Shown: positions 6,678-31,460 of the stretch, one piece after another
Position numbering within the stretch: position 1 is the first letter of the stretch
Layout of the letters: every line of letters begins with the position of its first letter
Source: Nostoc sp. GT001
GTDB lineage: Bacteria > Cyanobacteriota > Cyanobacteriia > Cyanobacteriales > Nostocaceae
Length of the DNA stretch: 32,078 nucleotides
Assembly: GCF_030382115.1 (NCBI RefSeq)
Contig: NZ_JAUDRJ010000001.1
Coordinates: 311,689-343,766 of the forward strand
Direction of reading: 5' to 3'
Position numbers and translations under genes: made by a program
The notes under the pieces: generated by a model
The model's input: only the letters and a program-made list of their open reading frames with translations
The model's database searches: none
What the model was told of the DNA's origin: nothing

Positions 6678-6703
6678 TCCTCTTATTTTGGCTAAGGTAT
6701 TGA
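6678..6703. repeat. IS right terminal inverted repeat
   Basis: Inverted partner of 5250-5275. It ends 18 nt before the start of the next ORF. Confidence 0.8.
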
Positions 6704-6963: not shown

Positions 6964-7002
6964 AGCTACTCTAGTACCGATTTTTTCAGTACCAAAGTAG
7001 CT
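6964..7002. promoter_or_regulatory. Long inverted repeat containing a GTAC-N11-GTAC palindrome
   Basis: Arms of 14 nt (AGCTACTCTAGTAC / GTACCAAAGTAGCT, 12 pairs) surround an 11-nt centre with six T. The inner part (6974-6992) has the same GTAC-N11-GTAC layout as the sites at 9292-9310 and 31433-31451. It lies between the stop of the 75-aa ORF and the start of the split AAA+ gene, so it may be an operator; a bidirectional terminator is the main alternative. Confidence 0.5.
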
Positions 7003-7056
7003 AGTAAAGAGTTTTAGCTATCAATAATATTGGGGTGAAATTTAACTAAAGCCCTA

Positions 7057-7689
7057 ATGAATAATGAGTTAATTAAACAAATATTTGGATTAATTAAGCT
7101 TAACAATAAGCTGATTGCTGTCGAGTCTCCATTGCAAGAGAGGGTCAGGCTGCTCATCAATCTAGCTAGTGAATGCCAGCAATACAACATTAACTGTTAC
7201 CTGTGGACGCTGGAGGATGATGCGCTACACCACTTATCCAGTAATGAGGGAGGATTAAGTTTACAAAGAGTTGACCAGTATCAGGCGATCGCCAAAAGCA
7301 GGCGCGAACATTACTTTGAAATTCTCCGATTCTGGAAAACTACCGATTTACAAGGGATTCTCATACTAGAGGGCATATTCCCCTGGCTGGGAGAGTCTAC
7401 CACTGACCCCGATTTCTTTCTGACTTCCGAGTGGATTAAGTCTGCCCTCATTAACCTGAAGCTGTGCAATCACTCTTGCAACAAGACAGCGATTCTCTTA
7501 GGGTCAAACGCCACTGTGTCATCTGACATTGCCCCCGAAGTTCCTACCATTGTGCAACAACTGCCAGCTATAGAGGAAATAAGTAGTTACTTAGCTCAAG
7601 TATTACCTGATTACAGCCGCAGCGATATTCATGCGACAGCGATCACTGAGCTTAGGGATCTACTTGGCAGACATTGGCTATGGAATTAG
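7057..7689 (+). CDS. N-terminal part of a split Ycf46-like AAA+ ATPase
   Basis: A 210-aa product that resembles the N-terminal half of Ycf46-type ATPases: an inactive P-loop-like domain with LINLASECQQYNINCYLWTLEDD, a central DLQGILILEGIFPWL strand, TAILLGSNATVSSDIAPEVPTIVQQLP, and a linker IEEISSYLAQVLPDYS. The AAA+ core that should follow in the same chain is encoded in the +1 frame, overlapping by 59 nt. The frame ends soon after the sequence GAG-CTT-AGG-GAT (CTT at 7651-7653). A +1 shift there would continue smoothly into GIYLADIGYGIRQAIANHE of the downstream frame. No Shine-Dalgarno is obvious before the ATG. It is either the first of two subunits or the first part of a frameshifted single protein. 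Confidence 0.7.
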   Translation: MNNELIKQIFGLIKLNNKLIAVESPLQERVRLLINLASECQQYNINCYLWTLEDDALHHLSSNEGGLSLQRVDQYQAIAKSRREHYFEILRFWKTTDLQGILILEGIFPWLGESTTDPDFFLTSEWIKSALINLKLCNHSCNKTAILLGSNATVSSDIAPEVPTIVQQLPAIEEISSYLAQVLPDYSRSDIHATAITELRDLLGRHWLWN

Positions 7690-8686
7690 ACAGGCGATTG
7701 CAAATCATGAAATTACACCGCATGAGTTAGTAGAAAAACTGTCCGCTTACAAAATCGAACTGTTTAAGCGAATTTATAATATTCAATTTCTCCAACCTCC
7801 AAGCACACCCATTGGTGGTTTAGAACTGATCCAGCAAGCGTTTAAAACTTATAAGCGCCTTCTATCCTCATTGGCTAAAGCTTACAATCTTCGTTTACCC
7901 AAGGGGATTTTACTAATCGGTCCACCGGGAACAGGAAAATCTTACTCGGCTAAAGCAAGTTCTGCACAATTGGGGCTACCTCTGATTATTTTGGAGTGGG
8001 GTAGTTTCCGCAGTTACGGTAATTTGGCTGAGTACAAGCTAAAGAACTTACTCGCACTGGTAGATCGAATCAACCGTGTAATCTTATACCTCGATGATTT
8101 TGATAAGGGATTCGCTGGGGATGACGATTTATCAAAACGACTAGCGGGAATGCTTTTAACCTGGATGCAAGAACGTACTAGTGAGGTTTTAATTATCGCT
8201 TCGGCTAACAATATTCAATGGCTACCACCAGAGCTAACCAGAAGTGGACGCTTTGACGAGATTTTTAAGGTGGATCTCCCAAATTACGGCGAACGCCACT
8301 CAATTTTCAAGATCCATCTCGCTAAATTCGATGCTCGTTTTCGTAACGGGGGCGATGGGTACAGCGAAGAAGAATGGAAAAGGTTACTCAAAGCCACGCA
8401 GCGATGTGTCGGGGCGGAGATTCAAGCCATTGTTGAACGTGCCGCCGTCTCTACTTTCTGTCAAATGTTCGGCGACGATGTTTCTCCCCTTCAAGAACTA
8501 CCACCACTAGGAATTACATTATCGGCATTGCTGGCTGCAAGGCAGAGTATGAATCCTCTGGCCATCCGCGAAGCTGACCGAGTTGAAAGTATGCGTAACA
8601 TTGCGGCTTTACATGGCCTTCCATCTAGCCCGATTGATTCATCTATATATAGTCTCGGCAATGTTGATATTTTTGGTGAAACATGA
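7631..8686 (+). CDS. AAA+ ATPase (Ycf46/FtsH-like core)
   Basis: A 351-aa AAA+ ATPase core. It shows Walker A GPPGTGKS (about residue 96-103), Walker B VILYLDDFDKGF (Asp-Asp instead of the usual Asp-Glu), sensor-1 region LIIASANNIQWLPPELTRSGRFDEIFKVDLP with the arginine finger in SGRFDE, and a C-terminal lid with a GAEIQAIVERA helix. The best match from memory is Ycf46, but the N-terminal domain is in the preceding overlapping frame. The ATG at 7631 lacks an RBS and adds about 10 residues that do not look like family sequence, which favours frameshifting from the upstream ORF over independent starting. The downstream DUF192 gene overlaps by 4 nt (ATGA), so all three are one operon. The role is unknown; these ATPases usually remodel proteins. 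Confidence 0.85.
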   Translation: MRQRSLSLGIYLADIGYGIRQAIANHEITPHELVEKLSAYKIELFKRIYNIQFLQPPSTPIGGLELIQQAFKTYKRLLSSLAKAYNLRLPKGILLIGPPGTGKSYSAKASSAQLGLPLIILEWGSFRSYGNLAEYKLKNLLALVDRINRVILYLDDFDKGFAGDDDLSKRLAGMLLTWMQERTSEVLIIASANNIQWLPPELTRSGRFDEIFKVDLPNYGERHSIFKIHLAKFDARFRNGGDGYSEEEWKRLLKATQRCVGAEIQAIVERAAVSTFCQMFGDDVSPLQELPPLGITLSALLAARQSMNPLAIREADRVESMRNIAALHGLPSSPIDSSIYSLGNVDIFGET

Positions 8687-9252
8687 AAACTTTAAAAATT
8701 AATTCCGAAAAGCATTTATACGTTGCTGCCTTCAAGTTACTGAACATACTAGGCCTCCTAGCTGGAGTATCAATTATCGTTGGCACTGTGGCGCTCGATT
8801 ACGTCCAAACTCGTCCCCAGGATTTACCAGTTACGCACATTCTCACCAAAGGCGGTCGCACATTTAACTTGGAAGCCGCTTCTACACCAGAGCAATTAGA
8901 GAAAGGGCTGAAATTTCGCTCATCCTTAAACGGCGAGCGCGGAATGTTATTCAATTTGGGAGGAGAAATTTATAATGTGCCTTTTTGGATGTACAAGGTA
9001 AATTTTCCTTTAGACATCTTTTATCTTAAGGACAATGTGGTGACAACTGCGGTTTACAATGCCCAACCGTGTTACAAAACCCCTTGCCCCATCTACAAAG
9101 GGAAAGTTGCCAATCAAGTGCTAGAGCTAGTAAAAGGCGCTGCCAATATCAAGGTTGGCGATCGGCTTAACATCCAACCCTTATCAGTTTTGCCTAAGAA
9201 TAATATTGGTATTTATAGCGGCAATTCTTTGAGAACCAAAAATAATCGCTAG
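8683..9252 (+). CDS. DUF192 domain protein, membrane-anchored
   Basis: A 189-aa protein with one N-terminal membrane segment (about residues 19-40, LLNILGLLAGVSIIVGTVAL), followed by a DUF192 domain from about 58 to 155. The domain shows the typical order: AASTPEQLEKGLKFRSSL, GMLFNLGG, FWMYKVNFPLDIFYL, then VLELVKGAANIKVGDRL. Two Cys residues lie in NAQPCYKTPCPIY. DUF192 proteins are small, mostly envelope-located beta-folds of unknown function. Here it is translationally coupled to the AAA+ ATPase (ATGA overlap), so the two probably act together, the ATPase inside and this domain outside the cytoplasmic membrane. Confidence 0.85.
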   Translation: MKTLKINSEKHLYVAAFKLLNILGLLAGVSIIVGTVALDYVQTRPQDLPVTHILTKGGRTFNLEAASTPEQLEKGLKFRSSLNGERGMLFNLGGEIYNVPFWMYKVNFPLDIFYLKDNVVTTAVYNAQPCYKTPCPIYKGKVANQVLELVKGAANIKVGDRLNIQPLSVLPKNNIGIYSGNSLRTKNNR

Positions 9253-9291
9253 TAATTGTATAACGTATTTTTGAAAAATCAAGAAACCATA

Positions 9292-9310
9292 GTACTGAAA
9301 AAAACAGTAC
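9292..9310. promoter_or_regulatory. Perfect GTACTG-A7-CAGTAC palindrome
   Basis: GTACTGAAAAAAACAGTAC, with perfect 6-nt arms and a 7-A centre, 43 nt upstream of the small BRO-like ORF. The spacing between the GTAC cores (11 nt) is identical at 6974-6992 and 31433-31451, and the whole left arm plus A7 centre is identical to the copy at 31433. It is too widely spaced to be a LexA box. It is a candidate operator for an unknown dimeric regulator. Confidence 0.6.
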
Positions 9311-9352
9311 CTAAATAGCTTCGTGTGTTGAATCAAATATGGCAATCTATTT

Positions 9353-9679
9353 ATGGGAAGAGTATGGACATATTGGGAATTTGATCATCCTTTGGGTAAC
9401 ACGGTGCGAGTAATCTCTACCCCACTAGGGTTAGAGATATTTGCCGAAGATGTGTTCAACGTCGTTGCAGCAGAATTAAATAACGAAAAAATAGTACTGA
9501 TGAATATTCACAGTCAAGAACGTTATGTAGTTATTGAAGAAGAGGTAGTAAAAATAAAAACTTTAAATTTTACAGCCATCAATACCTTAAAGACGATTGT
9601 AAAAGCGGACTTGATTAATAAATTTGTGCATTGGGTACGTATTACAATCCGACCGATATTTCAAAAACAGTACTTTTAA
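9353..9679 (+). CDS. Small hypothetical protein, possibly BRO-N-like
   Basis: A 108-aa protein. The first 60 residues (WEFDHPLGNTVRVISTPLGLEIFAEDVFNVV… then …VIEEEVVKIKTLN) are loosely like the N-terminal BRO domain, in which an aromatic-rich strand, VRV and a xxAxDV helix start are usual. This is a weak, motif-level resemblance. No membrane segment. It lies between the GTAC palindrome and the TraL-like ATPase gene (29-nt gap), so it may be the first gene of that transcription unit and could be its DNA-binding regulator. A half-site CAGTAC occurs near its 3' end at 9668-9673. Confidence 0.55.
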   Translation: MGRVWTYWEFDHPLGNTVRVISTPLGLEIFAEDVFNVVAAELNNEKIVLMNIHSQERYVVIEEEVVKIKTLNFTAINTLKTIVKADLINKFVHWVRITIRPIFQKQYF

Positions 9680-9708
9680 AAATTTAGTCAATACCAAAAG
9701 GAAGAAGA

Positions 9709-10899
9709 ATGATGATTATTAAGATAGCCAACGATAATAACCGAAATACTGGCAACAATCTGGCAGATCAACCCTTTACTAATACACAGTTTAACAATAT
9801 AGCACCCAACAATGCGATAGAAGAAAACACTAGTAATACAGATCCCGATAGCACAGCAACAGATCCTGATAGCCCAGTGCCCGACAATATAGCACTTAAC
9901 AATGTGACAGAAGAAAAGACTAGTAATACAGATCCCGACAGCCCAGTGCCCGACAATATAGCACTTAACAATGCGATAGAAGAAAAGGCTAGTAATACAG
10001 ATCCCGACAGCCCAGTGCCCGACAATATAGCACTTAACAATGTGACAGAAAAAAAGACTAGTAATACACAGTCTAATAATCCAGTATCCGAAAAGGATAA
10101 TAAAAATAATCCAGAACAACTAAGAAGATTAGTAATGGTGACAGGAGATAAAGGAGGTGTTGGTAAGTCAACTTTTGCCAGAGGTTTAGCGCAAACTTAC
10201 ATAGATAACGCAGTAAAATTTGTCGGGTTAGACGCGGATAATTCTAATCCACACTTGATCAGATTTTATGAAAAAGCTGCAAACATTCATCGTTTAGATA
10301 TATCTAACTCAGATAAATTAGACGAATTTGTAGATAATTTAAAAGAATTAGTCTATCCCAAATCAAAAGAATCTGGGAAAAATCAAGAGGAAAAATCTTT
10401 GATACTACTAGAAACGCCATCACAATTTCTGCCAACTTTAAAAATTTTAATAACCGAGATGGGGTTTTTAGATGTAGTAAATAATAAATGTAAAATGCGG
10501 GTGACGATAGTAGTAGTTATTAGCACAATAATTGATTGTATAACTCAACTACTAGAACTATATAGTTTTTGCGGTGATCGCGTTGATTATGTAATAGTAA
10601 AAAATTCGTTTTACGGAGAGGCGGAACAATTTGCTTTTTATGATAGTTCCGAAGAAATAAAAGTAATTGAACAGCAAGTAAAAGCAACAGGGCATGATTT
10701 CACAAGTATAAATATGCCAAAACTAGCGAAAAAATCCTACGATTATTTAGATGTGAAAAATTTGACATTTAGACAAGGACTTGAACAAGATGAATATCCC
10801 TCTGTATTTGGTAGAGTCTTAAGCTGGCTGAACAATTTTAAAGGGCAAATAAAGCCAAAAAAAGATTTATTTGGCATAGAGAAGATTTTATCTGAATAG
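9709..10899 (+). CDS. ParA/MinD-type ATPase resembling IncP TraL, with repetitive N-terminus
   Basis: A 396-aa protein. Residues 1-30 lead into a low-complexity region made of 23-residue repeats (about 30-128; unit NIALNNVTEEKTSNTDPDSP plus VPD), acidic and Asn/Pro-rich, probably disordered. The P-loop domain follows, with deviant Walker A GDKGGVGKS at about 146-154 and VGLDADNSNP after the next strand. The switch strand is ILLETPSQF, with Glu where Asp is usual. The later order (TIVVVIST…, VDYVIVKNSFYGE, MPKLAKKSYDYL, LTFRQGLEQ) matches the layout of plasmid RP4 TraL, a conjugation ATPase of unclear role. A Shine-Dalgarno-like GGAAGAAGA lies just before the ATG. The next gene, 8 nt downstream, encodes a shorter relative. 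Confidence 0.8.
   Translation: MMIIKIANDNNRNTGNNLADQPFTNTQFNNIAPNNAIEENTSNTDPDSTATDPDSPVPDNIALNNVTEEKTSNTDPDSPVPDNIALNNAIEEKASNTDPDSPVPDNIALNNVTEKKTSNTQSNNPVSEKDNKNNPEQLRRLVMVTGDKGGVGKSTFARGLAQTYIDNAVKFVGLDADNSNPHLIRFYEKAANIHRLDISNSDKLDEFVDNLKELVYPKSKESGKNQEEKSLILLETPSQFLPTLKILITEMGFLDVVNNKCKMRVTIVVVISTIIDCITQLLELYSFCGDRVDYVIVKNSFYGEAEQFAFYDSSEEIKVIEQQVKATGHDFTSINMPKLAKKSYDYLDVKNLTFRQGLEQDEYPSVFGRVLSWLNNFKGQIKPKKDLFGIEKILSE
9796..10092 (+). repeat. Intragenic 69-bp tandem repeat
   Basis: Four units of 69 nt (23 codons): 9796-9885 (with a 21-nt internal duplication of the GATCCTGATAGC part), 9886-9954, 9955-10023 and 10024-10092 (degenerate 3' end). Units 2 and 3 are nearly identical at DNA level, which suggests recent expansion and likely length variation between strains. 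Confidence 0.85.
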
Positions 10900-10907
10900 G
10901 AATAAAG

Positions 10908-11606
10908 ATGTCAAAAAGAATGATTATAACTGTAGGAGATGCGCGGGTGGGTAAGTCTACAGTTATCAAGCTATTGCTAGAAATGTTTGCCCAACAAGGA
11001 AAACGGATAAAGGTTTATAACCAAGAATCATTCTCTGTATTTCAAGCTTATGAACATATAGCAACCATTAAGAAGTTTAATTTATCAAATGACGATGCTG
11101 ATGCAATAGCAGATGACTTAAATCATCCTGAGTTAGATGTGATAATTGTTGATATGCCCGGACAAGATATTGAAAAAGTAATTCAATATATCGAGAGTGC
11201 TAGCTTATTTGAGGTTGTAGTAAAATTTGGTTGGAATTTAACATTTCTTCAACCTATTTCTCACAGGGAAGACTGTATATATTACTTAAATGCAATCATC
11301 CAGAACGCGACTAATAACGCTAACTACGTGGTTGTGAAAAATTACCATTTTGCGCCAGAGTTTAGAGAATATGAGGAGAAGATACGGAAAAAGCTGTTAA
11401 TAATAGGGGGTACAGAAGTAGAATTAGCGGCTCTACACCGGAATCATTATCAAGGGATGGAAAAGACTGGTAAACCATATTCAGAAGTTTGCCAGGATCT
11501 ATCAATGATTTTATTTTGGAGAAGCTTCATTTTTCAGTGGATTAAAAAGTTTCGTCATTCAGTGATGAATAACAATTTGGCTATTAAATATCTAGGGCTT
11601 GATTGA
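10908..11606 (+). CDS. Second TraL-like P-loop ATPase
   Basis: A 232-aa P-loop NTPase. Walker A is GDARVGKST at residues 10-18, the switch/Walker B strand is LDVIIVDMPGQD, and a later strand NYVVVKNYHFAPE parallels VDYVIVKNSF of the upstream ATPase. The C-terminal part (VELAALHRNHYQGMEKTGKPYSEV) resembles the end of TraL-type proteins. It lacks the GGVGK lysine of ParA (ARVGK instead), so dimer chemistry may differ from its neighbour. The gap to the upstream gene is only 8 nt, so the two are co-transcribed and may form a heteromeric pair. The tail is basic with several aromatic residues (FWRSFIFQWIKKFRHS), suggesting membrane or protein contact. Confidence 0.75.
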   Translation: MSKRMIITVGDARVGKSTVIKLLLEMFAQQGKRIKVYNQESFSVFQAYEHIATIKKFNLSNDDADAIADDLNHPELDVIIVDMPGQDIEKVIQYIESASLFEVVVKFGWNLTFLQPISHREDCIYYLNAIIQNATNNANYVVVKNYHFAPEFREYEEKIRKKLLIIGGTEVELAALHRNHYQGMEKTGKPYSEVCQDLSMILFWRSFIFQWIKKFRHSVMNNNLAIKYLGLD

Positions 11607-11634
11607 TGACAAAAATTAGGGTGTTGGGTATTGC

Positions 11635-11700
11635 CTGAGTGTGTTTAAGACAATTAAATTTTAGTTGCGTCAAGGAGTTGAACATTTTCTTGATTCCCCA
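11635..11700 (+). repeat. 66-bp dispersed repeat, copy 1
   Basis: CTGAGTGTGTTTAAGACAAT… to …TTGATTCCCCA, 62 of 66 positions identical with 21146-21211 in the same orientation. It is flanked by short inverted sequences (AGGGTGTTGGGTATTG on the left, CAATACCAGCAACCC on the right). It lies between the second TraL-like gene and the DUF6753-like gene; the interval 11607-11799 holds nothing else recognisable. Confidence 0.85.
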
Positions 11701-11799
11701 ATACCAGCAACCCCAATACCAGCAACCCTCTCATCCAGTTGTATCAAGGGTTTCTGCTTAACAAGCGTGCCATTCACCCTACACCCAACCCCCTACTTT

Positions 11800-12393
11800 A
11801 TGACACTACAAGACACATTACAAGGTTATTCCCCATCAGAACAAAAACGCATAGTTGAAGGGGCATATCAACTAGGAATTACACCAGACGATCCAGTTTT
11901 TAGGATGATGGCGACACTGGGCAGGTATGAAGAAACGATCATAGACCTCCAGGCAAGAATGGAGGCAATGATAGAAGCGTGGGCAGCACTGATAGACCAA
12001 AAACTGGATAAGACAAGCAAACAAGCCGAGTCAATGCATTATACAGTTGTGTCAAATGCTGTACGTGATGAGATCAAAAAAATCAAGCCCACCAGCACAG
12101 GCATGAAAGTGCAGGCAGGCTGGGGATTGGGGACAGTATCTCTTGTGTGTGGATTAGTAGCGGCTGGCAGTACCTTGCTGGGTTCGCTGACCACATGGAA
12201 TCTGGTGCAAAATATAGGAACGAATCAGTCAGTAGTAGTCTCACGTAACGAGATAAAGATTCTCCAGTGGGCAAAATCCCAAGAGGGTAAACAAATGTAT
12301 CAAATTATCTTGAAGAATCAAGCAGCAATTGAAGCCTGTCAAACACAACGCAGTAAAACCCAAGGCTATTGTTTAATTCAAGTAAGTAAGTAG
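11800..12393 (+). CDS. Membrane protein, DUF6753-like
   Basis: A 197-aa protein. The N-terminus (LQGYSPSEQKRIVEGAYQLGITPDDPVFRMMATLGRYE) is of the kind I associate with cyanobacterial DUF6753 plasmid proteins. A long helical or coiled-coil stretch follows (about 45-100), then one hydrophobic segment (GLGTVSLVCGLVAAGSTLLGSL, about 108-129), and a C-terminal domain with two Cys (IEACQTQRSKTQGYCLI). It is probably a single-span membrane protein. The frame is open upstream to a TTG at 11665, but that part is encoded by the dispersed repeat, so the ATG at 11800 is preferred. It converges directly on the response regulator gene, with adjacent stops at 12393 and 12394. Confidence 0.7.
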   Translation: MTLQDTLQGYSPSEQKRIVEGAYQLGITPDDPVFRMMATLGRYEETIIDLQARMEAMIEAWAALIDQKLDKTSKQAESMHYTVVSNAVRDEIKKIKPTSTGMKVQAGWGLGTVSLVCGLVAAGSTLLGSLTTWNLVQNIGTNQSVVVSRNEIKILQWAKSQEGKQMYQIILKNQAAIEACQTQRSKTQGYCLIQVSK

Positions 12394-13047
12394 CTAACCT
12401 ACTTTCAGGTAATCTTGTTCGATGTACCCAAGTTTACTAGCTTCAATCAGAGCATTGACGCGATCCTTGACATCTAACTTCGCAAAAATCTTGTTAATAT
12501 GACCTTTAACGGTACTTTCAGTAATAAATAACCGCTCGGCAATCAGCTTATTAGAAGAACCATCTGCCATCAAAGAGATAATTTGCATTTCAGTGGCACT
12601 AAGATGATCTTGGTAAGTCTTACCCTTAATTTTCTGCTGGAAGAAGAAATTATTTCGGCTAATATCAGGGTCAAAAAAAGACTTGTTATCGTAGAATGTG
12701 GTTTTAATTGCTTCTAAAATCAGAGGAACATTATTCTTTTTGAGAATGTAAGAATCAGCGCTAACATTTAAAGCTGATTGAACAGTGCCTTGAGAAGAAT
12801 GGGAAGAAAGAACAACAATTTTAGTCTTGCTATTCACTTTGACCTCTTTGATCACTTCTAGCCCCGATATGTCAGGTAAACCAATATCCACCAAAATCAC
12901 ATCGGGATTTAATTCCTTAACTAAATTAATCCCTTCAATACCAGTACGAGCAACGCCGACCATTTCCATATCTGGTTGTTGATTGATAGCAGTAGTGATC
13001 CCCAACCTAATGAGTTCTTCATCCTCAATGAGCGTTAATCGAATCAT
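12394..13047 (-). CDS. NarL/FixJ-family response regulator
   Basis: A 217-aa two-component regulator. The receiver domain (1-120) has acidic pocket E8-D9, phospho-acceptor D54 (VILVDIGLPDISG), the S81 switch position (VVLSSHSS) and K103 (YILKKN). The LuxR-type helix-turn-helix occupies about 150-210 (LSATEMQIISLMADGSSNKLIAERLFITESTVKGHINKIFAKL). All residues needed for phosphotransfer and DNA binding are present. It is transcribed away from the histidine kinase at 13305 with a 257-nt shared upstream region that contains an 18-bp palindrome, so the two are a plausible cognate pair. LuxR-type regulators bind palindromes, so the 13171-13188 site may be its own operator. Confidence 0.93.
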   Translation of the reverse strand: MIRLTLIEDEELIRLGITTAINQQPDMEMVGVARTGIEGINLVKELNPDVILVDIGLPDISGLEVIKEVKVNSKTKIVVLSSHSSQGTVQSALNVSADSYILKKNNVPLILEAIKTTFYDNKSFFDPDISRNNFFFQQKIKGKTYQDHLSATEMQIISLMADGSSNKLIAERLFITESTVKGHINKIFAKLDVKDRVNALIEASKLGYIEQDYLKVG

Positions 13048-13170
13048 AGATCACTTCGATTATAAGATGACTCAATATTTATAGCATAGTTGTTGGTGTT
13101 AAGCCTTTTACTTTTCATGTCTGTAATATAAAATAAAAATAATCAAAAATCTTTCCAGATAAATGAAATA

Positions 13171-13188
13171 AACTTTAGTACTAAAGTT
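13171..13188. promoter_or_regulatory. Perfect 18-bp palindrome between regulator and kinase genes
   Basis: AACTTTAGTACTAAAGTT is perfectly self-complementary. It misses the LexA consensus by one base. Its central place between divergent two-component genes makes an operator, possibly autoregulatory, likely. The rest of 13048-13304 is AT-rich leader with nothing else clear. Confidence 0.6.
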
Positions 13189-13304
13189 GGATTGGATAAT
13201 TTCTTTTTATAACTAAAATAAAAGTATTCTCAAATCTTGTAGACATAATTAGTATTTATTCATAAAAGTAGCCAAAATAACCATCTGTCGTTGGAAACAT
13301 AGTT

Positions 13305-14069
13305 ATGCAACAGGAAGTTTTAAGCAAACAGTTGGATTTATCAGCCTTACTCCATGATGTGTCGAATTCTTTTAAAGGGGCATCGTTGATTGTAAATCAG
13401 TTAATTGATGGCGCTTATGGATACTCTTTAGAAGAAATCAGACCATTTCTGATAGCCCTACGAGATACTAATGATCGGGGTATGAGCTTGGTTGAAGCTA
13501 ACAGAGTCTCTCAAGAAGCTAAACCAGTAACAGTAGCTCAGTTTGATATGTTGAGTTTTTTACAAACAACTTATTCCCTATTCAAGCCAATAGCGCAGTA
13601 TCATTCCTTGAATCTCCACTACGAAACTCAATCATCATACAAGCATGGAACGCAAGTACGGGGTGATAGCATAAGTATTGACAGAATGCTGTGTAATTTT
13701 GTGACAAATGCTATTAAGTACACTCTTGCCGGAGATATCTTTTTAAGGCTGCTCAATCAAGAAGATGATTTAGCGATCGAAATTGAAGATACTAGCTGTG
13801 GAATTGCCGCAGAACAACTATCAAATATATTTATCCCATTATGGCGAGCGCCAAATAGCAATTTATTACATCAATCAGGGATGGGATTAGGACTGTACAT
13901 CGCCTTATGTGTGGCTCATGCTCATGGTTTGAAGATAAGCGTAAACTCGGTAGCCAAACAAGGAACCAAATTCACCATTATATTTCCTTACAAAGATGAC
14001 GGGGTTTATGGGGTTGATGGTAGGATGTTGCCCAAATCGCAGAGGTTACAAGATGCGTTACCTATATGA
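13305..14069 (+). CDS. Soluble sensor histidine kinase
   Basis: A 254-aa kinase without membrane segments or recognisable sensor domain. The phospho-acceptor region is right at the start: H17 in LSALLHDVSNSFKGA. The ATP-binding domain shows the N-box (DRMLCNFVTNAIKYT), the G1 box in the form IEDTSCGI (second Gly of DxGxG altered to Cys) and the G2 box GMGLGLYIA, ending with FTIIFPY. Input must therefore come through a partner protein or the short N-terminal part. The response regulator gene at 12394-13047 is divergent and the small membrane protein gene overlaps the 3' end, so that protein could provide the membrane or sensory link (inference). Confidence 0.88.
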   Translation: MQQEVLSKQLDLSALLHDVSNSFKGASLIVNQLIDGAYGYSLEEIRPFLIALRDTNDRGMSLVEANRVSQEAKPVTVAQFDMLSFLQTTYSLFKPIAQYHSLNLHYETQSSYKHGTQVRGDSISIDRMLCNFVTNAIKYTLAGDIFLRLLNQEDDLAIEIEDTSCGIAAEQLSNIFIPLWRAPNSNLLHQSGMGLGLYIALCVAHAHGLKISVNSVAKQGTKFTIIFPYKDDGVYGVDGRMLPKSQRLQDALPI

Positions 14070-14295
14070 TGTGAAACTTTGGGACAGGATCGAAACAGGA
14101 GTGGAATTTCTAATTTTTGTGGCTTTGATGATAGCGGCAATTATCAAACTGGGATACAACGATTTTCTACAAGCATTGTTTTACATAGTATTAGCTGTCA
14201 TCATCTCACCCTGGTCACAATTCGAGCGGGTGACTAAGCGATATGTCTTAGTAAGTGCTTACATTCTTGGGTTGTTTGTCGGGTATTTTAGTTAG
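14053..14295 (+). CDS. Small two-span membrane protein downstream of the kinase
   Basis: An 80-aa protein with a strongly hydrophobic middle: FLIFVALMIAAIIKLGYNDF followed by LQALFYIVLAVII, a loop SPWSQFERVTKRY, and a last hydrophobic stretch VLVSAYILGLFVGYF, i.e. two or three membrane helices. The ATG at 14053 is preceded by AGAGG (14041-14045) at good distance. An earlier in-frame ATG lies deeper inside the kinase gene and is less likely. It overlaps the kinase end by 17 nt, so it is coupled to it. It overlaps the 254-aa minus-strand gene by 4 nt at its 3' end. Confidence 0.65.
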   Translation: MRYLYDVKLWDRIETGVEFLIFVALMIAAIIKLGYNDFLQALFYIVLAVIISPWSQFERVTKRYVLVSAYILGLFVGYFS

Positions 14296-15056: not shown

Positions 15057-15061
15057 AGGTA

Positions 15062-18574: not shown

Positions 18575-18621
18575 ATTTTTTATTAATTATTTATACACTG
18601 TGCCTTGTGCTGTACTTTTGT

Positions 18622-19110: not shown

Positions 19111-19114
19111 AATA

Positions 19115-21019: not shown

Positions 21020-21145
21020 TTTAAGGTAGAGAATTAGGTTGACCAAGCCCCTTCGGGGCAGGGTGTAGGGTGTGGGGTATAGGGGAATGTCACTAAGAAA
21101 ACGTGAAACCTCGCGCTTGGCAGGGTGTTGGGGGTAGGGTGTAGG

Positions 21146-21211
21146 CTGAGTGTGTTTAAGACAATTAACCTTTAGTTGCGTCACGGAGTTCAACATTTTC
21201 TTGATTCCCCA
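21146..21211 (+). repeat. 66-bp dispersed repeat, copy 2
   Basis: 62 of 66 bases identical with 11635-11700. It is flanked by G-rich heptads on the left (GGGTGTTGGGGGTAGGGTGT) and their inverse on the right (CCCAACACCCTACCCCCTAC), so a long cruciform is possible. It occupies the interval between the secreted-protein gene and virD4. Confidence 0.85.
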
Positions 21212-21236
21212 CACCCAACACCCTACCCCCTACACC

Positions 21237-24732: not shown

Positions 24733-25520
24733 TTCCTTCTCCCGAAGTTTAAATCTACAATTTCTGTAATTTCTAATCCGGCGCGACGGGCTGCATAAAT
24801 CTTCTTAGCTAACTCAGTGGTATTAGCTGGGATATATTCTGGATTAGAAATTGAAGAAACTGTAACGGTTTTATTGAAAGCAATTCCTTTACCTGAGTTA
24901 TACTCACGGTCAAAAGTTACCAGTGTACCAATAAAATCTATTTCCCATTTCCCTGATTTAATTTGACGTGGTTGGGATATGAATCGGGGAATTAAAGATA
25001 CTTGAGTATCACCATTGAATATACCTGTCGGAGTGATTGATGCTAATTTCTTGAGAAAGGCGGGGCGAAATCCTTCATTTTCACTTAAAGCAAATGCAGC
25101 ATCATAGGCTCTAGTCGCAACCCGACTATTAGATTTATTATTAAGTTTACCTACTTCTACCCCAATATCTTGCTTAGTGATAGGTTCTCCTTGATCATTA
25201 AATGCTTTTACTAATCCATCCCAATTAAACGTAGTAATAAATGTATCAGATACAAATTTTTTAATTACTTCATCAGACCGTTCTTTTGGGTCTACTACTC
25301 TAGCGGCGATTGTCTCTCCTGAAGAGAGTTGTACTAATGCCAACTGTTTTTTATTTAAAACACTAACTGCTCCATAATTTAGAAATTGTAATAATAGAGA
25401 AAGCGCAGCCATTGAAAACCCAGCCAGGGAAATTATTCCGACTCTTGTTGTTACATACTTGTTGTAACTAAGTAATTGTAATGGTTCTTTGGGTTGAGTT
25501 TTTTTTTGATGATTCAGCAT
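24729..25520 (-). CDS. VirB8/TraE-like inner-membrane T4SS protein
   Basis: A 263-aa protein with a short cytoplasmic N-terminus, one membrane helix (about 28-50, VGIISLAGFSMAALSLLLQFL) and a periplasmic domain. That domain contains DEVIKKFVSDTFITTFNWDG, a segment with a bound-strand pattern TQVSLIPRFISQPRQIKSGKWEIDFIGTLVTFD, and IVDLNFGR at the end. Size, topology and position between VirB6 and VirB10 match VirB8/TraE, which dimerises in the periplasm as an assembly scaffold. Sequence-level similarity is modest. Confidence 0.7.
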   Translation of the reverse strand: MLNHQKKTQPKEPLQLLSYNKYVTTRVGIISLAGFSMAALSLLLQFLNYGAVSVLNKKQLALVQLSSGETIAARVVDPKERSDEVIKKFVSDTFITTFNWDGLVKAFNDQGEPITKQDIGVEVGKLNNKSNSRVATRAYDAAFALSENEGFRPAFLKKLASITPTGIFNGDTQVSLIPRFISQPRQIKSGKWEIDFIGTLVTFDREYNSGKGIAFNKTVTVSSISNPEYIPANTTELAKKIYAARRAGLEITEIVDLNFGRRK

Positions 25521-25525
25521 AAGTT

Positions 25526-26626
25526 TTATTTAGCCAATTTTCCGACTAAACTACCACCTTTAGTAGCAACACCTTTAGCAACCTCAATAGCAATACCACT
25601 ATAAGTTTCAGTAGCTTTATTAATTTGAATTAAAACAGAAACGCCACCACCAGCCGCTAAACCTGTAGCTAAGAATGGCGCAATTATACCAATTGTAAAT
25701 AGGAAGAACATTGGCTGATAAGATTTAGATTCAGCGACTAATTGCCCGGCGAAACCAACTATGATATTGAAGCAGAGCTTGCCAAAACCTACACTGAAAT
25801 ATCCTACTAACCAACTGTAAATTGATTTAGCTCCGTAAGGTAGCAGAGAACCACCAACAGCTACAGGCCCCAACAGTGCTGTTACAAGCATAGTCAGTTC
25901 AATTCCCCATTGATAAGCCCCATTCATCCCGACTAAAATTATCGTAACTATATCAGTAACAGCAGACCCAACAAAAGCATTAATGGGAGATAACATTAAA
26001 TCGATTCCATTTGCTTTTCCATCTTTCACATCATTAAAAGCATCGATAGCGCCATCAACCGCATCTATAAACCAAGAAAAAGCTCCATTATTTTTGTTAA
26101 ACTTATCTGGATATTTTTTGGTTAAATCTTCTTTAGCTTGAGCCAAACAGTTAATTTGTTCTTGTTGACTTAAAGATGAATTCCTACATTTATTTACAGC
26201 AATACCAATAGCGCTACGTGCTGCTTCAGTTCCCAATGCACTTTCAAATGCTTGCTTGAGGTCAATTCCTGCCGCCGCTTCGCTAAGAACTATATTATTT
26301 ACATTATTAATATAGTTTCTAATCCCCAAAGTTGACTTTCCTAGTACATCCCCCTTATTACTGAGCAAAAGAACTACTATTAACGGCCAAATAAAGTCTG
26401 TATAAGCTCTTTGTTCTTCCCCCGCCATCATTTTTTTTGTCCATTCAACGACGAAGAAAGTTAGTGTTGCTACAGCAAATAAAGCTCCGACTGTACAAAT
26501 TGCTGAATAAACACCACCTGTAATAGTTTCGTTCCAAAGCTCATCAAATCCTTGAGCTATTGAAGCTGCATTTTCTTTTGCTAAATCAGCTAAATCACCA
26601 CCATCTAGTTTGGCTAGTAAAAACAT
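25526..26626 (-). CDS. VirB6/TrbL-like polytopic T4SS protein
   Basis: A 366-aa membrane protein. Hydrophobic segments can be placed at about 40-60 (AICTVGALFAVATLTFFVV), 78-90, 222-262 (two helices around MLVTALLGPVAVGGSLLPYG), 268-292 (VGYFSVGFGKLCFNIIVGFA) and 300-335 (FFLFTIGIIAPFLATGLAAGGG). Between helices 2 and 3 lies a long soluble loop with two Cys (KCRNSSLSQQEQINC). This layout matches VirB6/TrbL, the inner-membrane channel part. The gene starts 120 nt after VirB5, the widest gap inside this part of the cluster, so an internal promoter or processing site is possible. Confidence 0.75.
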   Translation of the reverse strand: MFLLAKLDGGDLADLAKENAASIAQGFDELWNETITGGVYSAICTVGALFAVATLTFFVVEWTKKMMAGEEQRAYTDFIWPLIVVLLLSNKGDVLGKSTLGIRNYINNVNNIVLSEAAAGIDLKQAFESALGTEAARSAIGIAVNKCRNSSLSQQEQINCLAQAKEDLTKKYPDKFNKNNGAFSWFIDAVDGAIDAFNDVKDGKANGIDLMLSPINAFVGSAVTDIVTIILVGMNGAYQWGIELTMLVTALLGPVAVGGSLLPYGAKSIYSWLVGYFSVGFGKLCFNIIVGFAGQLVAESKSYQPMFFLFTIGIIAPFLATGLAAGGGVSVLIQINKATETYSGIAIEVAKGVATKGGSLVGKLAK

Positions 26627-26746
26627 GATTTGAATCCTTGCTCAATACAGTAATTTTGTCAGACATTTGAACGCTAGTTGATTGTTTGTGTAGGAAGGAA
26701 AAGCTCTTGTAACTTTCCCTCCTACTGTGTTTCTATACCCTTTTAA

Positions 26747-27454
26747 TCAGTCAGCAGAAGTAGGATCTAGCCGTGCATTAAGTACCACTTCATGCACTAA
26801 AGACAATCTGCCATCTTCTTCGGAGTTCTCCTTTTGCCTTTGAGAATCAAGATGCTCCGCTACTTGCGTTAGCATCAAGTTAGAGTAAGCATTGTCCTGT
26901 CGGGCTAATAAAGAATCAGTACGCTGCTGTGCCAACATTGACACAATTAAGCCGTTCTGAGACGCGATCGCTTTGAGAACGTTTTGAGAGGCATCCATAT
27001 TCTGCGCCTCATCAGCAATACCTTTTGCAAGTTTAGCGATTTGTGCAGTAGTATCAATTTTTTCTTGAGTTTGCTGCTGTCCTTTTTTTCCAATCACGCT
27101 GGCAATCGAGCCAAGCGTCAATTCACGCTCTAGCTTCTGTGCTTTTTCTTGGGCGACAGGATAAGAATAATCATCCTTGAGCGTATTTTTCAATTGTTCA
27201 GCCGAAGCGATTGGGTCAGGCGCACCCAATTGTCCAATAGAACTATCAATTGCCGCATTAGCATTTTCTTTGATGTCACCCCAAGCACTGTTAATCTCAC
27301 CCTTGGCCCATGCTTGAATTTCCGAAACTTCTCCTTGAAGATCCGATACGATAGAACTAAAAAAATCGTTGATGCTGATGCCATAGCTAGGTGCAGCAAT
27401 AAAGAAACTGCCAACTGTAGCAGAAAGTATTACCCCAATTGTCCGCTTTTTCAT
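26747..27454 (-). CDS. VirB5/TrbJ-like secreted T4SS protein
   Basis: A 235-aa protein with a signal peptide (1-25, VILSATVGSFFIAAPSYG). The mature protein is almost entirely helical with heptad character (SEIQAWAKGEINSAW…, KAQKLERELTLGSIASVI, VLKAIASQNGLIVSMLAQQR…SLLARQ, then MLTQVAEHLDSQRQ), as in VirB5/TrbJ, a minor pilus component. Its ATG abuts the VirB4 stop (TAAATG), so it is coupled to VirB4. Confidence 0.72.
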   Translation of the reverse strand: MKKRTIGVILSATVGSFFIAAPSYGISINDFFSSIVSDLQGEVSEIQAWAKGEINSAWGDIKENANAAIDSSIGQLGAPDPIASAEQLKNTLKDDYSYPVAQEKAQKLERELTLGSIASVIGKKGQQQTQEKIDTTAQIAKLAKGIADEAQNMDASQNVLKAIASQNGLIVSMLAQQRTDSLLARQDNAYSNLMLTQVAEHLDSQRQKENSEEDGRLSLVHEVVLNARLDPTSAD

Positions 27455-30274
27455 TTAAGCTACTTGTCTTGTATGTGATTTTGAAAGTAAATTCTTCGCT
27501 AATTCTGATAACTCTTCCCCCCGAATCATTCTGATATAATCCTCACTAAATTTGACTAACCCAAGTAGAGGATTATCTTGATAGTGCTTGAGAAACAAAC
27601 TGCGTAATTCTTGTTCGTTTGGATTATTAGCAACTGAGGCTAATAAACAATACGCAGGATAATAGCGACAGAATGTGAGTTTACCGTTATCATCAAGCAA
27701 CCATTGTGAGTAAATCCCCGACTTTTTGGGATAAAAAGCTTCTGTACTGTTGACCCTGATGATTTCAATAGGATATTTAAAGCGAACAATAAACGGGTCA
27801 ACGGCTGATGATTGAATCCTGCCTACTAAACGTGTAGTTATATTGGCAAATATCTTCTGTGCAGATGCGCTCTGATATATAGTCTCTGGTTCTTGGGCAG
27901 AGATGATGACGCGGATACCAGACTTAGCTCCATTGGCACACAATCGCCCAATCAACGAGGCGATCGCATCGAATTGAAACAATATTGGTGCTTCATCAAG
28001 GAAGAATATCGAAGCTTTTGATGATAATGCACGACGTAATGCAGCAGAATATGCACTAAGAGCGAGTATGGCAGCATCAGCTTCACTCGATAAATTACGT
28101 AAAGCGAATACTAATAATTTGGCATTAGTTCTAAAACTGGATGGGCGTGAGATTGATTGTCCTACCCTGGTACTCAACCAATAATTTATTCTCAGCCTGA
28201 TTTGCTGTAAGGCTTCGGAAATCTCTTGACTCTTACTAGCAATAGAATCTAATTGTATGAAAGCTGGAGAACAAAAATTATAAAAATCTTTGAGCGTCGG
28301 AGTTTCGCTCCAATATTGGCTTCCAAATCCATTTTGTATTGCTAACTTGTAGCGCGATTTAATTTCGTCATCATTAAAAAACGTTTTTAATGTTAACGCA
28401 ATGATTGACTCAATATTAGTGGTAATCGTTGGGCTGACACCAATCATGCTCGTCCCTATCACCATTGTCATTAGCACTGATTTGAGGAATTCCTTAAAAT
28501 CGTTCAATCGCTCATTTCTCAGTTCTGCATCCAGAGAGCGCAAATCAGGAAGTTCAAAAAGATTGTTTGATTCTTTGGAGATGTCAAAGTATGCCCCATC
28601 TTCGCCCAGCAGATTTGTGTAGTCGGTGAATGTAGAAGTACCATCTGGTTTAGGATAATCTAGTGCCACTACCGGAATATCTTGTGCAAGTGCCGGGGTA
28701 AGAATACCTGCCACCAATACAGATTTACCTGAACGAGTTGCGCCGAAGACTGCCAAATTCTTATGATTTTGGTATAAGTCTAGATGTACTGGTGTGCCCC
28801 CTTCTTCTGCAATCAACTCAAAGCCAGTGCAATCGCCTGTGGCAGTCCTAATCAACGGCATCAGCCCTGGTGCTTCCGAACTAAAATATGGCAGTCGGCG
28901 GTTAAAAGGCTTGGTTAACAACGGCTCCCAAACAAATGGGCAACACTGCAACCATGTCTTCCAAGCGTATTCAATCTCCCGGTCAACTACCGCCGGACGC
29001 AAGAAATAGCTGGCAAGATATCGGCAAGCTTCGTCTAATTCCCGTAGGGTTGGACGGTGAACCAGAAAAGCAACTGCGGTATGCACTACTACACTACCTT
29101 TATATATTGTCTTCTGCGCCTCTACAGCCGACTCAATATTCATCCCCGATTTGACATCAATATTTCCTTTATCTGTAGATAAAGAAGTGCTGGTAATTGA
29201 TTGTTTGGTAATGCGTTGAAGATTTGTTTTAGAAATAGCTTGATTTGCCTTTGTTAGCTGACAAATAACCTCTGTATCATAAATACTATCTCTAGAGATT
29301 AATTCCCACAAATAACGTAATTGAGCTTGTTCGTCATACCACCCCCCTGGCTTTTGGCTGAAGTTGAGCGCCCCAATATATTTATTTTGTAGTTTTACCC
29401 ATTTTCTATCGAAAAATGGCACAGACTCCTCATTCTCTAACATCTGGTGGCGGATGTGAAAATCGCTCGTCTGAGTTTCTACTATTCCATCTATTGGGTC
29501 AATTTTTAATGGATTAGGGATTGCCGGAGGAGTAGAGCAATTAAGCTGTTGCCAAATTGTTGACCAAATTTCTTCAGCACTTAAAACCCTAATCCCCAAC
29601 TTCATCTTGTTGCCCAGGATAGCTGACCACTGTAAAAATCCATCGTTAAATGAATTTTGCAGAATATTTTCAATTCTAGTATTGTTATGGGCGTGAATTT
29701 CACCTGTAAAGCGAAACCAGCCCTTTTCTAATTTTCTAATCAGAGATTCTATAAAATCCTTAGACCGTTCATCGTCATCAATAACAGTGTAAGTACACCA
29801 TAGTCTCAAAAACTTATTCTTCCTAGCTCCACTTTCCGTTAGTTTTTTAGTCCTTAATCTTTCACTACGTATTAACAATTTTAATTGGTCAATCTGACAA
29901 TTACTCTCTAGCTTGGACAGTTCTTCTTGTCGGTGATAATCAGACGTAAAAGAACCTAAATGTATTGTTAAGTTTTCCCCTTCGGGAATTTCTTTTAGCC
30001 CCGCTTCTATCCCCTCAAAGATAGGCAGCATTTGCGATGATTCTAAATTCGGATGAATCCCTAAACAATCAAAGCAGAATTTAATTTGAATATTTTCACC
30101 TTTTTTAAGAATTAATGCGCCTACGCCCTGCCTACCTCCTAAGTTGAGGTCACAAATCCCCGCTAAATGGATAATATCTTCAAAGGGAGTGAGCATTTTC
30201 ACAACACTAATCTGCTCGTTTTCTAATGCGACTTTACCTAATTTATCTTTAGCCTTATTAGAAGAATTTGGCAT
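27455..30274 (-). CDS. virB4: VirB4/TraC-type T4SS ATPase
   Basis: A 939-aa ATPase that powers pilus assembly and substrate transfer. The N-terminal half is an unassigned VirB4-type region. The ATPase domain has Walker A FGATRSGKSVLV (about 510) and Walker B SIFFLDEAPILFQFD (about 755), then GLRVIISAQEP-type sensor sequence (SGIRVIISAQEPETIYQSA) and ITTRLVGRIQ. The frame is open to a GTG at 30289, but the ATG at 30274 (MPNSSNKAKDKLG) is as likely; neither has a strong RBS. It lies 46 nt after the VirB3-like gene, and VirB5 follows immediately. Confidence 0.9.
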   Translation of the reverse strand: MPNSSNKAKDKLGKVALENEQISVVKMLTPFEDIIHLAGICDLNLGGRQGVGALILKKGENIQIKFCFDCLGIHPNLESSQMLPIFEGIEAGLKEIPEGENLTIHLGSFTSDYHRQEELSKLESNCQIDQLKLLIRSERLRTKKLTESGARKNKFLRLWCTYTVIDDDERSKDFIESLIRKLEKGWFRFTGEIHAHNNTRIENILQNSFNDGFLQWSAILGNKMKLGIRVLSAEEIWSTIWQQLNCSTPPAIPNPLKIDPIDGIVETQTSDFHIRHQMLENEESVPFFDRKWVKLQNKYIGALNFSQKPGGWYDEQAQLRYLWELISRDSIYDTEVICQLTKANQAISKTNLQRITKQSITSTSLSTDKGNIDVKSGMNIESAVEAQKTIYKGSVVVHTAVAFLVHRPTLRELDEACRYLASYFLRPAVVDREIEYAWKTWLQCCPFVWEPLLTKPFNRRLPYFSSEAPGLMPLIRTATGDCTGFELIAEEGGTPVHLDLYQNHKNLAVFGATRSGKSVLVAGILTPALAQDIPVVALDYPKPDGTSTFTDYTNLLGEDGAYFDISKESNNLFELPDLRSLDAELRNERLNDFKEFLKSVLMTMVIGTSMIGVSPTITTNIESIIALTLKTFFNDDEIKSRYKLAIQNGFGSQYWSETPTLKDFYNFCSPAFIQLDSIASKSQEISEALQQIRLRINYWLSTRVGQSISRPSSFRTNAKLLVFALRNLSSEADAAILALSAYSAALRRALSSKASIFFLDEAPILFQFDAIASLIGRLCANGAKSGIRVIISAQEPETIYQSASAQKIFANITTRLVGRIQSSAVDPFIVRFKYPIEIIRVNSTEAFYPKKSGIYSQWLLDDNGKLTFCRYYPAYCLLASVANNPNEQELRSLFLKHYQDNPLLGLVKFSEDYIRMIRGEELSELAKNLLSKSHTRQVA

Positions 30275-30320
30275 AACTTTACCAATCACTGAAATTTAAC
30301 TAAAACTTAGAACTTAGAAC

Positions 30321-30686
30321 TTATTTTTCTTCCGACTTCCGACTTCCGACTTCTGACTTCTGACTTCTGACTTCTGACTTCCGACTTCCGACTTCCGACT
30401 TCTGTTGTATTGATTGAAATCTCATATATCCCCTACTAATCCGAGGGACGCTGACGAACTTACCGAAAAAGTCTTTATTTGTAGAAATTGTCCACCATGT
30501 TGCCCATCCCCAAGCAATACTTAATCCTGTACCTAACCAACTTGTTTTCAGTAGATAATTAAAGATAAATACATTGACTACTGCTATTAATGTCCAGGCA
30601 AATATTTGGTCAGCAGGGAATGGCCCTAGCCTTGGTCTTTCTCCTAAAATCCTATTTACTGTCCGAAAATCATGTTTCGTTGACAT
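30321..30686 (-). CDS. VirB3-like small membrane protein with repeat-coded tail
   Basis: A 121-aa protein with two hydrophobic segments (about 28-46, QIFAWTLIAVVNVFIFNYLL, and 50-65, GTGLSIAWGWATWW). It lies immediately upstream of VirB4, the normal position and topology for VirB3. Residues from about 95 to the end (SEVGSRK repeated) are encoded by an array of the 7-bp CTTCCGA/CTTCTGA repeat. Because 7 is not a multiple of 3, the repeat reads as a 7-residue peptide. The tail therefore looks like a secondary extension of a roughly 95-aa protein. Confidence 0.75.
   Translation of the reverse strand: MSTKHDFRTVNRILGERPRLGPFPADQIFAWTLIAVVNVFIFNYLLKTSWLGTGLSIAWGWATWWTISTNKDFFGKFVSVPRISRGYMRFQSIQQKSEVGSRKSEVRSQKSEVGSRKSEEK
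30329..30404. repeat. Heptamer tandem array (about 11 copies) inside a coding region
   Basis: Eleven consecutive units, CTTCCGA x3, CTTCTGA x4, CTTCCGA x3 and a last partial CTTCTG. The same unit occurs at 31713-31750. It codes for the C-terminal tail of the VirB3-like protein. Confidence 0.9.
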
Positions 30687-30765
30687 ACTTATTGATTTAA
30701 TAAAAAGTTATCAGCTATTAATGCAAATACGTATTTATCAATAACTGATAACTGAAAAAGCTTTT

Positions 30766-31353
30766 TTACTGAACAATCAAGCCAGTAATTAAATCTCCAA
30801 CAAAAACTGCCATAACTATGATTAATGGAGTTCTTGCTAGTGTCTGCCAGTCTTCATCATTCCGGGCAGATTGAATAATCCGAACTAGACTGATACCAAC
30901 ATATAATAGGAATAAAGCTCTTAATACATTGAAAAAAAGTGCGATAACTGCTGATGTTTGTCCATTACCGGCATTACCAAAAGTGTTGGTCATCCAAGTT
31001 TGAGCATTATTGAAAAACTGAGCATTAGCTGGAGCCGCCGCAAAATCAATTACACAAATTACTGCTAACAGTGCAAACAACACAGCATAGACATTAACTC
31101 CATACTTTCGTTGTACTTTGTCGAAGTTAGTAAATAATGCTTGTGACTGTTTCGGCAAGGCAATGACGATGGCAGACGCAATCATAAATCCACCCATCAA
31201 TATATTGTGGACGGACATCTCTGCTATCATCAACACACCAGTCACACCCATGAGTGTAAGTGTGCTTTTTGTCGCCCTCTCATTCTTTGGAGAAGGCGAG
31301 AGGGTTGCTGTTGGCGAAGCAGCAAAATCTGGGTATCCATAAGAAGTACGCAT
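30766..31353 (-). CDS. VirB2-like pilin precursor, first gene of the T4SS cluster
   Basis: A 195-aa protein. A soluble N-terminus (1-28), coded partly by a palindromic repeat, precedes hydrophobic helices at about 30-65 and 88-108 (VYAVLFALLAVICVIDFAA). It then has APANAQFF, a plausible pilin processing site, and finally a small mature-pilin-like part with two membrane helices (VIALFFNVLRALFLLYVGISL and LIIVMAVFVGDLITGLIV). This resembles VirB2/TraA, the major pilin, although the long N-terminal part is unusual. As the first gene of the cluster it follows the regulatory region at 31430-31500. Confidence 0.65.
   Translation of the reverse strand: MRTSYGYPDFAASPTATLSPSPKNERATKSTLTLMGVTGVLMIAEMSVHNILMGGFMIASAIVIALPKQSQALFTNFDKVQRKYGVNVYAVLFALLAVICVIDFAAAPANAQFFNNAQTWMTNTFGNAGNGQTSAVIALFFNVLRALFLLYVGISLVRIIQSARNDEDWQTLARTPLIIVMAVFVGDLITGLIVQ
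31267..31296. repeat. Small palindromic repeat within the pilin-gene 5' end
   Basis: Arms CCCTCTC and GAGAGGG enclose TTCTTTGGAGAAGG; neighbouring GGCGAAGCAG sequence resembles scattered GCGAAGC-type intergenic repeats. It is translated as part of the N-terminus (ATLSPSPKNE) of the VirB2-like protein. Confidence 0.5.
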
Positions 31354-31432
31354 CTGCTTTCGTTCTCCTGAACGATGTCTTGAGGGATAGGCACATTCTT
31401 GAATAAGTCAACCCCAAAATCCACAAACTCTG

Positions 31433-31451
31433 GTACTGAAAAAAACAGAAC
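31433..31451. promoter_or_regulatory. GTACTG-A7-CAGAAC palindrome upstream of the virB operon
   Basis: Same layout as 9292-9310, with one base different (CAGAAC for CAGTAC). It lies about 80 nt upstream of the VirB2-like start and overlaps the LexA-type box at 31447-31460. Confidence 0.6.
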
Positions 31452-31460
31452 TGTAGTACT
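31447..31460 (-). promoter_or_regulatory. LexA-type box at the virB operon promoter
   Basis: Read on the minus strand, AGTACTACAGTTCT fits the Anabaena LexA consensus RGTACNNNDGTWCB at every position. TATACA just upstream (31460-31465 reversed) may be a -10 box. This would give SOS control of conjugation genes; binding is inferred. Confidence 0.55.

Follow-up and report, generated by a model that had tools for sequence, protein, structure and literature searches.

A palindromic site upstream of several operons of a large Nostoc plasmid and the plasmid-encoded response regulator that probably acts on it

TraR of Ti plasmids acts on several operons per plasmid. It shows a LuxR-type helix-turn-helix (HTH), has a tra box of ~18 nucleotides (nt) and activates transfer genes (PMC9654057), and in the IncP plasmid RK2 the plasmid-encoded global regulators KorA and KorB are described with dispersed operators in the plasmid core operons (PMC4889941, PMC11790492). 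Here, a palindromic site is described that is repeated in a stretch of 32,078 nt from Nostoc sp. GT001 (the window, C1:311689-343766), where C1 is a contig of 361,862 bp in a 7.9-Mb genome of 6 contigs. From sequence comparison, it is rather probable that these palindromes are the operators of one plasmid-encoded regulon, whose dimeric regulator is most likely the response regulator encoded at 12394-13047. In PLSDB, the closest relatives of C1 are large Nostoc plasmids typed as conjugative, MOBV and MPF_T; C1 is a plasmid-size replicon and not an integrative and conjugative element within the chromosome, an element type that had also been named, and it is treated as a plasmid of this large conjugative Nostoc group.

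By analogy, TraR with its tra box and the Kor regulons appear to be the systems closest in working. Like TraR, the candidate is a plasmid-encoded regulator with a LuxR-type HTH; unlike TraR, it shows a phospho-receiver N-terminal domain and a neighbouring kinase and no domain binding acyl-homoserine lactone, and, unlike the tra box, its putative site consists of two dyads and an A/T tract. Dispersed operators before plasmid operons are the likeness to KorA and KorB, whereas the Kor proteins are repressors (KorB is a ParB protein) with another fold and site. The receiver plus GerE architecture is that of VraR/LiaR and NarL, and for VraR, footprints on two neighbouring stretches of a promoter (-50 to -75 and -46 to -26) have been reported (PMC6612188); these are chromosomal stress or nitrate regulators, whereas the Nostoc protein is encoded on a conjugative-type plasmid beside virB genes. 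No paper describing this operator or regulon was found in searches of the open-licence PMC literature, as judged by titles and the start of abstracts.

The window contains three copies of the site:
6974..6992, + strand: core of operator A, GTACCGATTTTTTCAGTAC; the palindromic match reaches ~6964-7002, and the centre is 74 nt 5' of the ATPase start codon
9292..9310, + strand: core of operator B, GTACTGAAAAAAACAGTAC; centre 52 nt 5' of the Bro-N-like gene
31433..31451, - strand: core of operator C, GTACTGAAAAAAACAGAAC; centre 89 nt 5' of virB2, a gene of the - strand

The preliminary description had reported a 19-bp palindrome upstream of three transcription units, and the three sequences were confirmed at their positions, the right core of operator C being GAAC instead of GTAC. 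The upstream positions and the constant spacing stood, whereas the unit proved bigger (two overlapping 16-bp dyads) and a fourth site, D, is present at C1:289425-289443, 22 kb to the left of the window and upstream of an open reading frame (ORF) of 144 codons, orfD. The pattern GTACTG-N7-CAGTAC with at most one mismatch shows three matches in the window against 0.02 expected, and three or more were found in 0 of 100 shuffles. The looser pattern GTAC-N11-GTAC with one mismatch, put forward as a check, is not enriched in the window (8 matches against 5.4 expected, with eight or more in 17 of 100 shuffles): the signal resides in the 12 specified bases and the A/T spacer. Over the whole genome, GTACTG-N7-CAGTAC with one mismatch is found at 16 places versus 8 for its reversed control, and the refined pattern GTACYGAWWWWWWCRGWAC shows four exact matches in 7.9 Mb, all four on C1, its reversed control giving none on the forward and one on the reverse strand. 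With a weight matrix trained on 24 sites from relatives only, A-D score 34-48 bits on the 362-kb plasmid and the next best place 14.8, a contrast that is not independent of homology since orthologous sites share descent. By the refined pattern and, on C1, the weight matrix, the same site is present upstream of several C1 operons and absent elsewhere in the genome.

Operator C also overlaps an exact match, AGTACTACAGTTCT at 31447-31460, to the LexA consensus of cyanobacteria, which we take to be RGTACNNNDGTWCB, and this match is kept in several close relatives. That operator C is a LexA (SOS) box is nevertheless the least probable of the explanations considered: the LexA spacing, GTAC-N4, is unlike GTAC-N11, the match is absent in MS1, T. 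variabilis and Halotia, it overlaps C only, with none at A or B, and the consensus is barely informative, with 79 matches genome-wide versus 54 for the reversed control.

The palindrome is found, with few misses, before the same four genes in the related plasmids: those for the AAA ATPase and the Bro-N-like protein, virB2 and orfD. The two GTAC cores together show no more than one mismatch in 13 of 13 plasmids in slot A, 12 of 16 in slot B, 10 of 12 in slot C (at fixed spacing) and 7 of 11 in slot D, counts in which the best place within 460 bp was taken without a shuffle control. The two misses in slot C, ATCC 53789 and SO-36, contain a site there with a 12- or 10-base spacer; slot B of SO-36 shows no site by score, and a related sequence is visible there nonetheless. 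The refined pattern was also scanned in 388 Nostocales genomes, where 13 genomes were positive at 21 positions: 13 positions precede one or other of these four genes (four in our plasmid and nine in other genomes), and the remaining eight are elsewhere and resemble chance. Most of the other genomes with such upstream positions are plasmids otherwise in the set (G342 Halotia, G383 ATCC 53789 and G240 pNLP1) and only G327 is new, so the scan adds one genome. Conservation upstream of homologous operons, which had been named as a check, is borne out in the related plasmids. On a second replicon of our own host (G000:C2), virB2 has no site. The virB2 upstream region of G292:C2 (L241), a plasmid with a distant regulator, shows in the C slot a diverged palindrome, ACTTTATTACTAGAAAAAGATAGTAATAAAGT, with a 12-base spacer. 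In L038, L139 and L140, plasmids without a close regulator, another repeated element, ~AACAAAATGYAGA ... ACAAAYATTT, apparently precedes virB2, as seen by eye only.

Site A is 74 nt from the ATPase gene in all but two of 13 plasmids, where the distance is 73 nt. The block order varies among plasmids, mobV-ATPase-DUF192 adjoining either BRO or virB2, and the site remains with its own gene. Inverted arms around a 7-bp spacer have the geometry of a recombination site, an integrase gene is near virB2 in several plasmids, and plasmids differ by an inversion of the B-C segment against its neighbours, all of which would suit site-specific recombination by a tyrosine recombinase (loxP/dif-like) or, alternatively, ParB-like partition sites. 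This explanation is held to be highly improbable, only a little above the LexA box: through the rearrangements, each site is found with the same flanks and at a constant distance from the next gene, the spacers are unlike among the sites of one plasmid, with no identical crossover spacers or junctions inside sites, pNOS3756_1 and pNSMS101 lack such a site although both have an integrase, presumably orthologous, next to virB2, and the concerted change at B and C, described below, tracks the regulator.

The full palindrome spans ~33-43 bp in an alignment of 28 sites, the consensus of 24 sites from relatives being TACTTTGGTACTGAAAAAAACAGTACTAAAGTA, and we read it as two overlapping 16-bp dyads, each centred on GTAC and 15 bp apart, around an A/T tract. 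In most slots of a plasmid the arms are alike: ACTYTRGTAC-like in the clade I plasmids, ACTTTCGTAC-like in T. variabilis, and CCAAAAGTAC-like in Halotia, SO-36 and C052_B. Across slots, arms agree at 5.2 of 8 positions within a plasmid versus 3.2 of 8 between plasmids, and among within-slot permutations of four representative plasmids only 4 of 13,824 match the observed agreement; this count is unchanged when MS1 replaces our own plasmid and becomes 1 of 216 with three plasmids. Since the arms vary in concert over four slots, a single trans-acting protein is implied. The two halves of a site covary in A (18 of 720 permutations) and D (4 of 40,320) and weakly or marginally in B (119 of 720) and C (8 of 120). 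Near-perfect outer arms that covary on both sides in A and D could also be those of an RNA or DNA hairpin in a leader or of a terminator between operons, site A being terminator-like on the - strand and site D being followed by a T-rich stretch. Such a hairpin is very unlikely, with a chance hardly above that of a recombination site: the covariation at B and C is poor, pairing alone would not require the same arm letters at all four slots of one plasmid, terminator-like matches are not above shuffles (3 versus 2.4), and no gene reads towards site A on the - strand. Slot conservation and concerted arm change support the earlier suggestion of a common operator and a trans-acting regulator joining the accessory and virB operons.

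The candidate regulator and its neighbours are:
12394..13047, - strand: response regulator with receiver and GerE/LuxR HTH, the proposed trans-acting regulator (Pfam, alignment, distances)
13172..13187, no strand: single dyad ACTTTAGTACTAAAGT between regulator and kinase, in their divergent promoter region; it corresponds to the outer arms of the full site joined through a single GTAC
13305..14069, + strand: small histidine kinase (HATPase_c, Pfam), divergent from the regulator
13996..14295, + strand: hydrophobic protein of 99 amino acids (aa) (ORF list), overlapping the end of the kinase gene

The response regulator matches the Pfam families Response_reg (1.4e-21) and GerE (1.7e-16), and its nearest solved structures by sequence are VraR and NarL. 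Its D54 is invariant in 10 of 10 aligned proteins and, by family knowledge, is presumably the phospho-acceptor. The gene of the HATPase_c protein, the putative cognate kinase, is found in the same place, divergent from the regulator, in most relatives. Its product has 254 aa, in which no sensor domain is recognised, and the pair formed with the 99-aa ORF (13305-14295) is kept in several relatives; the hydrophobic protein could possibly be a membrane partner of the kinase. In pNOS3756_1 of NIES-3756 (L148:1114-4119), a more distant response regulator (32%) is encoded directly after the ATPase and DUF192 genes, a gene order suggesting that the ATPase operon was linked to a regulator before the present operator type arose.

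In 192 genomes of the family, 60 virB2 loci were scored for the site, the regulator being called at E<=1e-60. A site score of at least 7.0 is shown by 17 of the 18 loci that share a contig with the regulator, by 4 of the 11 whose regulator is elsewhere in the genome and by 6 of the 31 from genomes in which no regulator was found. The null from 1,200 two-base-block shuffles is 6.1 at 5% and 7.9 at 1%, and the threshold of 7.0 was picked after the scores were seen. Fisher's p for same-contig regulator versus none is 4e-7 at 7.0 and 4e-5 at 7.9; of the 18 same-contig loci, at least 10 belong to replicons that are also in the slot table. Among the site-bearing loci called regulator-less, the regulator of G442 contains a run of N (this genome was also counted as regulator-positive in a second version of the test), G499 has a piece of the regulator, and the match of G484 is a different repeat.

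In distance (Mantel) tests on 16 of the 18 same-contig loci (G392, with no site, and G489, with a partial regulator, were left out), operator C follows the regulator when virB2 is accounted for (partial r 0.69, 0 of 5000 permutations) and hardly follows virB2 when the regulator is (partial r 0.10, p 0.13). Given each of ten other plasmid genes (n=13), the partial r of operator C with the regulator is 0.69-0.86 (0 of 4000 permutations each), versus -0.22 to 0.18 for those genes given the regulator. Operators A, B and D were tested on the 10-15 plasmids with available loci, and operator B likewise follows the regulator given BRO, ParA1, ParA2 or the histidine kinase, HK (n=15). The plasmid of Nostoc ATCC 53789 is mosaic: its regulator is 76% identical to that of T. 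variabilis and 59% to ours, whereas its DUF6753, virB4 and virB2 are 94%, 97% and 91% identical to ours. Its operator C shows two mismatches from T. variabilis and 13-17 from the clade I type predicted by its virB2, and its operator B 8-9 mismatches from T. variabilis versus 13-14 from clade I.

The preliminary description had offered the response regulator and the Bro-N-like 108-aa protein as candidates, and the distance tests at B and C favour the former. The same operator regulon could be served by the Bro-N-like protein or another plasmid protein: the Bro-N-like gene is directly behind operator B, its predicted model resembles Bro-N domains, which show a phage antirepressor/DNA-binding fold, its Mantel r for operator C is 0.81, and for the operator D distances BRO reaches an r of 0.88 versus 0.75 for the regulator. 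Given the regulator, however, the partial r of BRO falls to 0.18 (p 0.07) for C and -0.03 for B. Moreover, NLP1 and XA010 contain ATCC 53789-type BRO (88%), ParA1 (98%), ParA2 (97-98%) and ParM (98-99%), yet their operators A and B are identical to ours, while our BRO is only 66-68% identical to theirs, which speaks against all of these proteins. This alternative is accordingly judged unlikely.

Several observations weigh against the response regulator as the trans-acting protein. Five palindrome-bearing virB2 loci have no intact regulator in the data (G498, G356, G499, G423 and p057_G); p057_G (C057), which shows operator C and no close regulator, is treated as degraded because the surrounding 40 kb lack most virB genes. 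Operator A is mixed, with HK, ATPase and DUF192 fitting at least as well as the regulator, which is not so without ATCC 53789, and operator D tracks orfD2, HK and BRO better than the regulator. In ATCC 53789, operator A shows 1-2 mismatches from clade I versus 10 from T. variabilis, and operator D 1-3 from NLP1/XA010 (11 from ours) versus 7 from T. variabilis, a pattern suggesting that B and C moved with the regulator and that A and D did not. On a small set of related plasmids, Mantel tests exaggerate significance, and the contrast depends heavily on this one mosaic plasmid, without which virB2 retains a partial r of 0.39 (p 0.016) for operator C. The promoter scan shows no sigma-70-like promoter at the expected place, with nothing above shuffles. 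The single dyad, whose pattern ACTTTNGTACNAAAGT has its sole exact copy in the genome here (with three one-mismatch places, as many as the control), is an 18-bp perfect dyad in 5 of 16 plasmids and is absent from FACHB-892, where the regulator is 99% identical; missing beside near-identical regulators, it gives weak support for autoregulation. On balance, the operator reading appears well supported and the response regulator is the probable trans-acting protein.

Regulator dimers would bind the dyad pairs (GTAC-centred, 15 bp apart) that precede four operons: AAA ATPase-DUF192, Bro-N-like/ParA/ParA/DUF6753, virB2 onward, and orfD outside the window. Four half sites per operator suggest that two dimers probably sit side by side. 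The adjacent histidine kinase may phosphorylate the regulator and so set operator occupancy, in which case the conjugation genes and the accessory operons would switch together. Most A-C sites are 50-100 nt 5' of start codons, which fits control of initiation. We therefore read the locus as a putative plasmid two-component regulon that coordinates conjugation with accessory operons.

The genes behind operators A, B and C are:
7057..8686, + strand: AAA ATPase gene, the first behind operator A, in two overlapping frames (Pfam, ORFs of relatives)
8683..9252, + strand: DUF192 protein (Pfam)
9353..9679, + strand: Bro-N-like 108-aa protein, the first behind operator B (predicted structure, fold search)
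9709..10899 and 10908..11606, + strand: two ParA/P-loop ATPase genes behind operator B (Pfam)
11770..12393, + strand: DUF6753 protein (Pfam)
27455..31353, - strand: virB2/virB3/virB4-like genes behind operator C, named by position, by the preliminary description and by the annotation of relatives

An AAA+ gene does precede DUF192, as had been described, and its "split" is that of one gene: it is a single ORF in relatives, interrupted here by a frameshift or a sequencing error. The label BRO-like for the 108-aa protein is backed in part by its predicted model, which resembles viral Bro-N domains and shows four fold matches at E<=0.001, one of them named BRO N-terminal (three of the five predicted models being poor), and not by Pfam or the PDB, where the protein shows no match (E<=0.001 for the PDB). 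The virB2 and virB3 proteins show no Pfam match. The relaxase gene mobV is split, with its 5' part at C1:292892-294356 and its 3' part at 6722-6949 of the window. The ~24 kb between them are flanked by two identical 1,452-bp insertion sequence copies in the same orientation (window 5251-6702 and the C1:292892-295808 region), with AGAAA at both outer edges of the insert, the pattern expected from a composite transposon.

Regulator/operator pairs might also be an exchangeable specificity code insulating related conjugative plasmids in one cell, a tentative idea that is more doubtful than not. In strain C052, C052_A and C052_C share one regulator/operator type and C052_B has another; ATCC 53789 has apparently exchanged its regulator for a foreign one, with operators B and C to match, and retained its native virB genes. 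If so, the two-component system would choose, for each plasmid, which conjugation machine is on. Little is known about the control of transfer in native cyanobacterial conjugative plasmids, of which, according to one paper, only pCC7120alpha has been reported as transmissible in vivo (PMC8600333). The operator system is also present on plasmid A of Trichormus variabilis ATCC 29413, and the finding supplies a well-delimited site, a specific protein as candidate regulator and the operons of a candidate regulon, with T. variabilis ATCC 29413 as a test strain.

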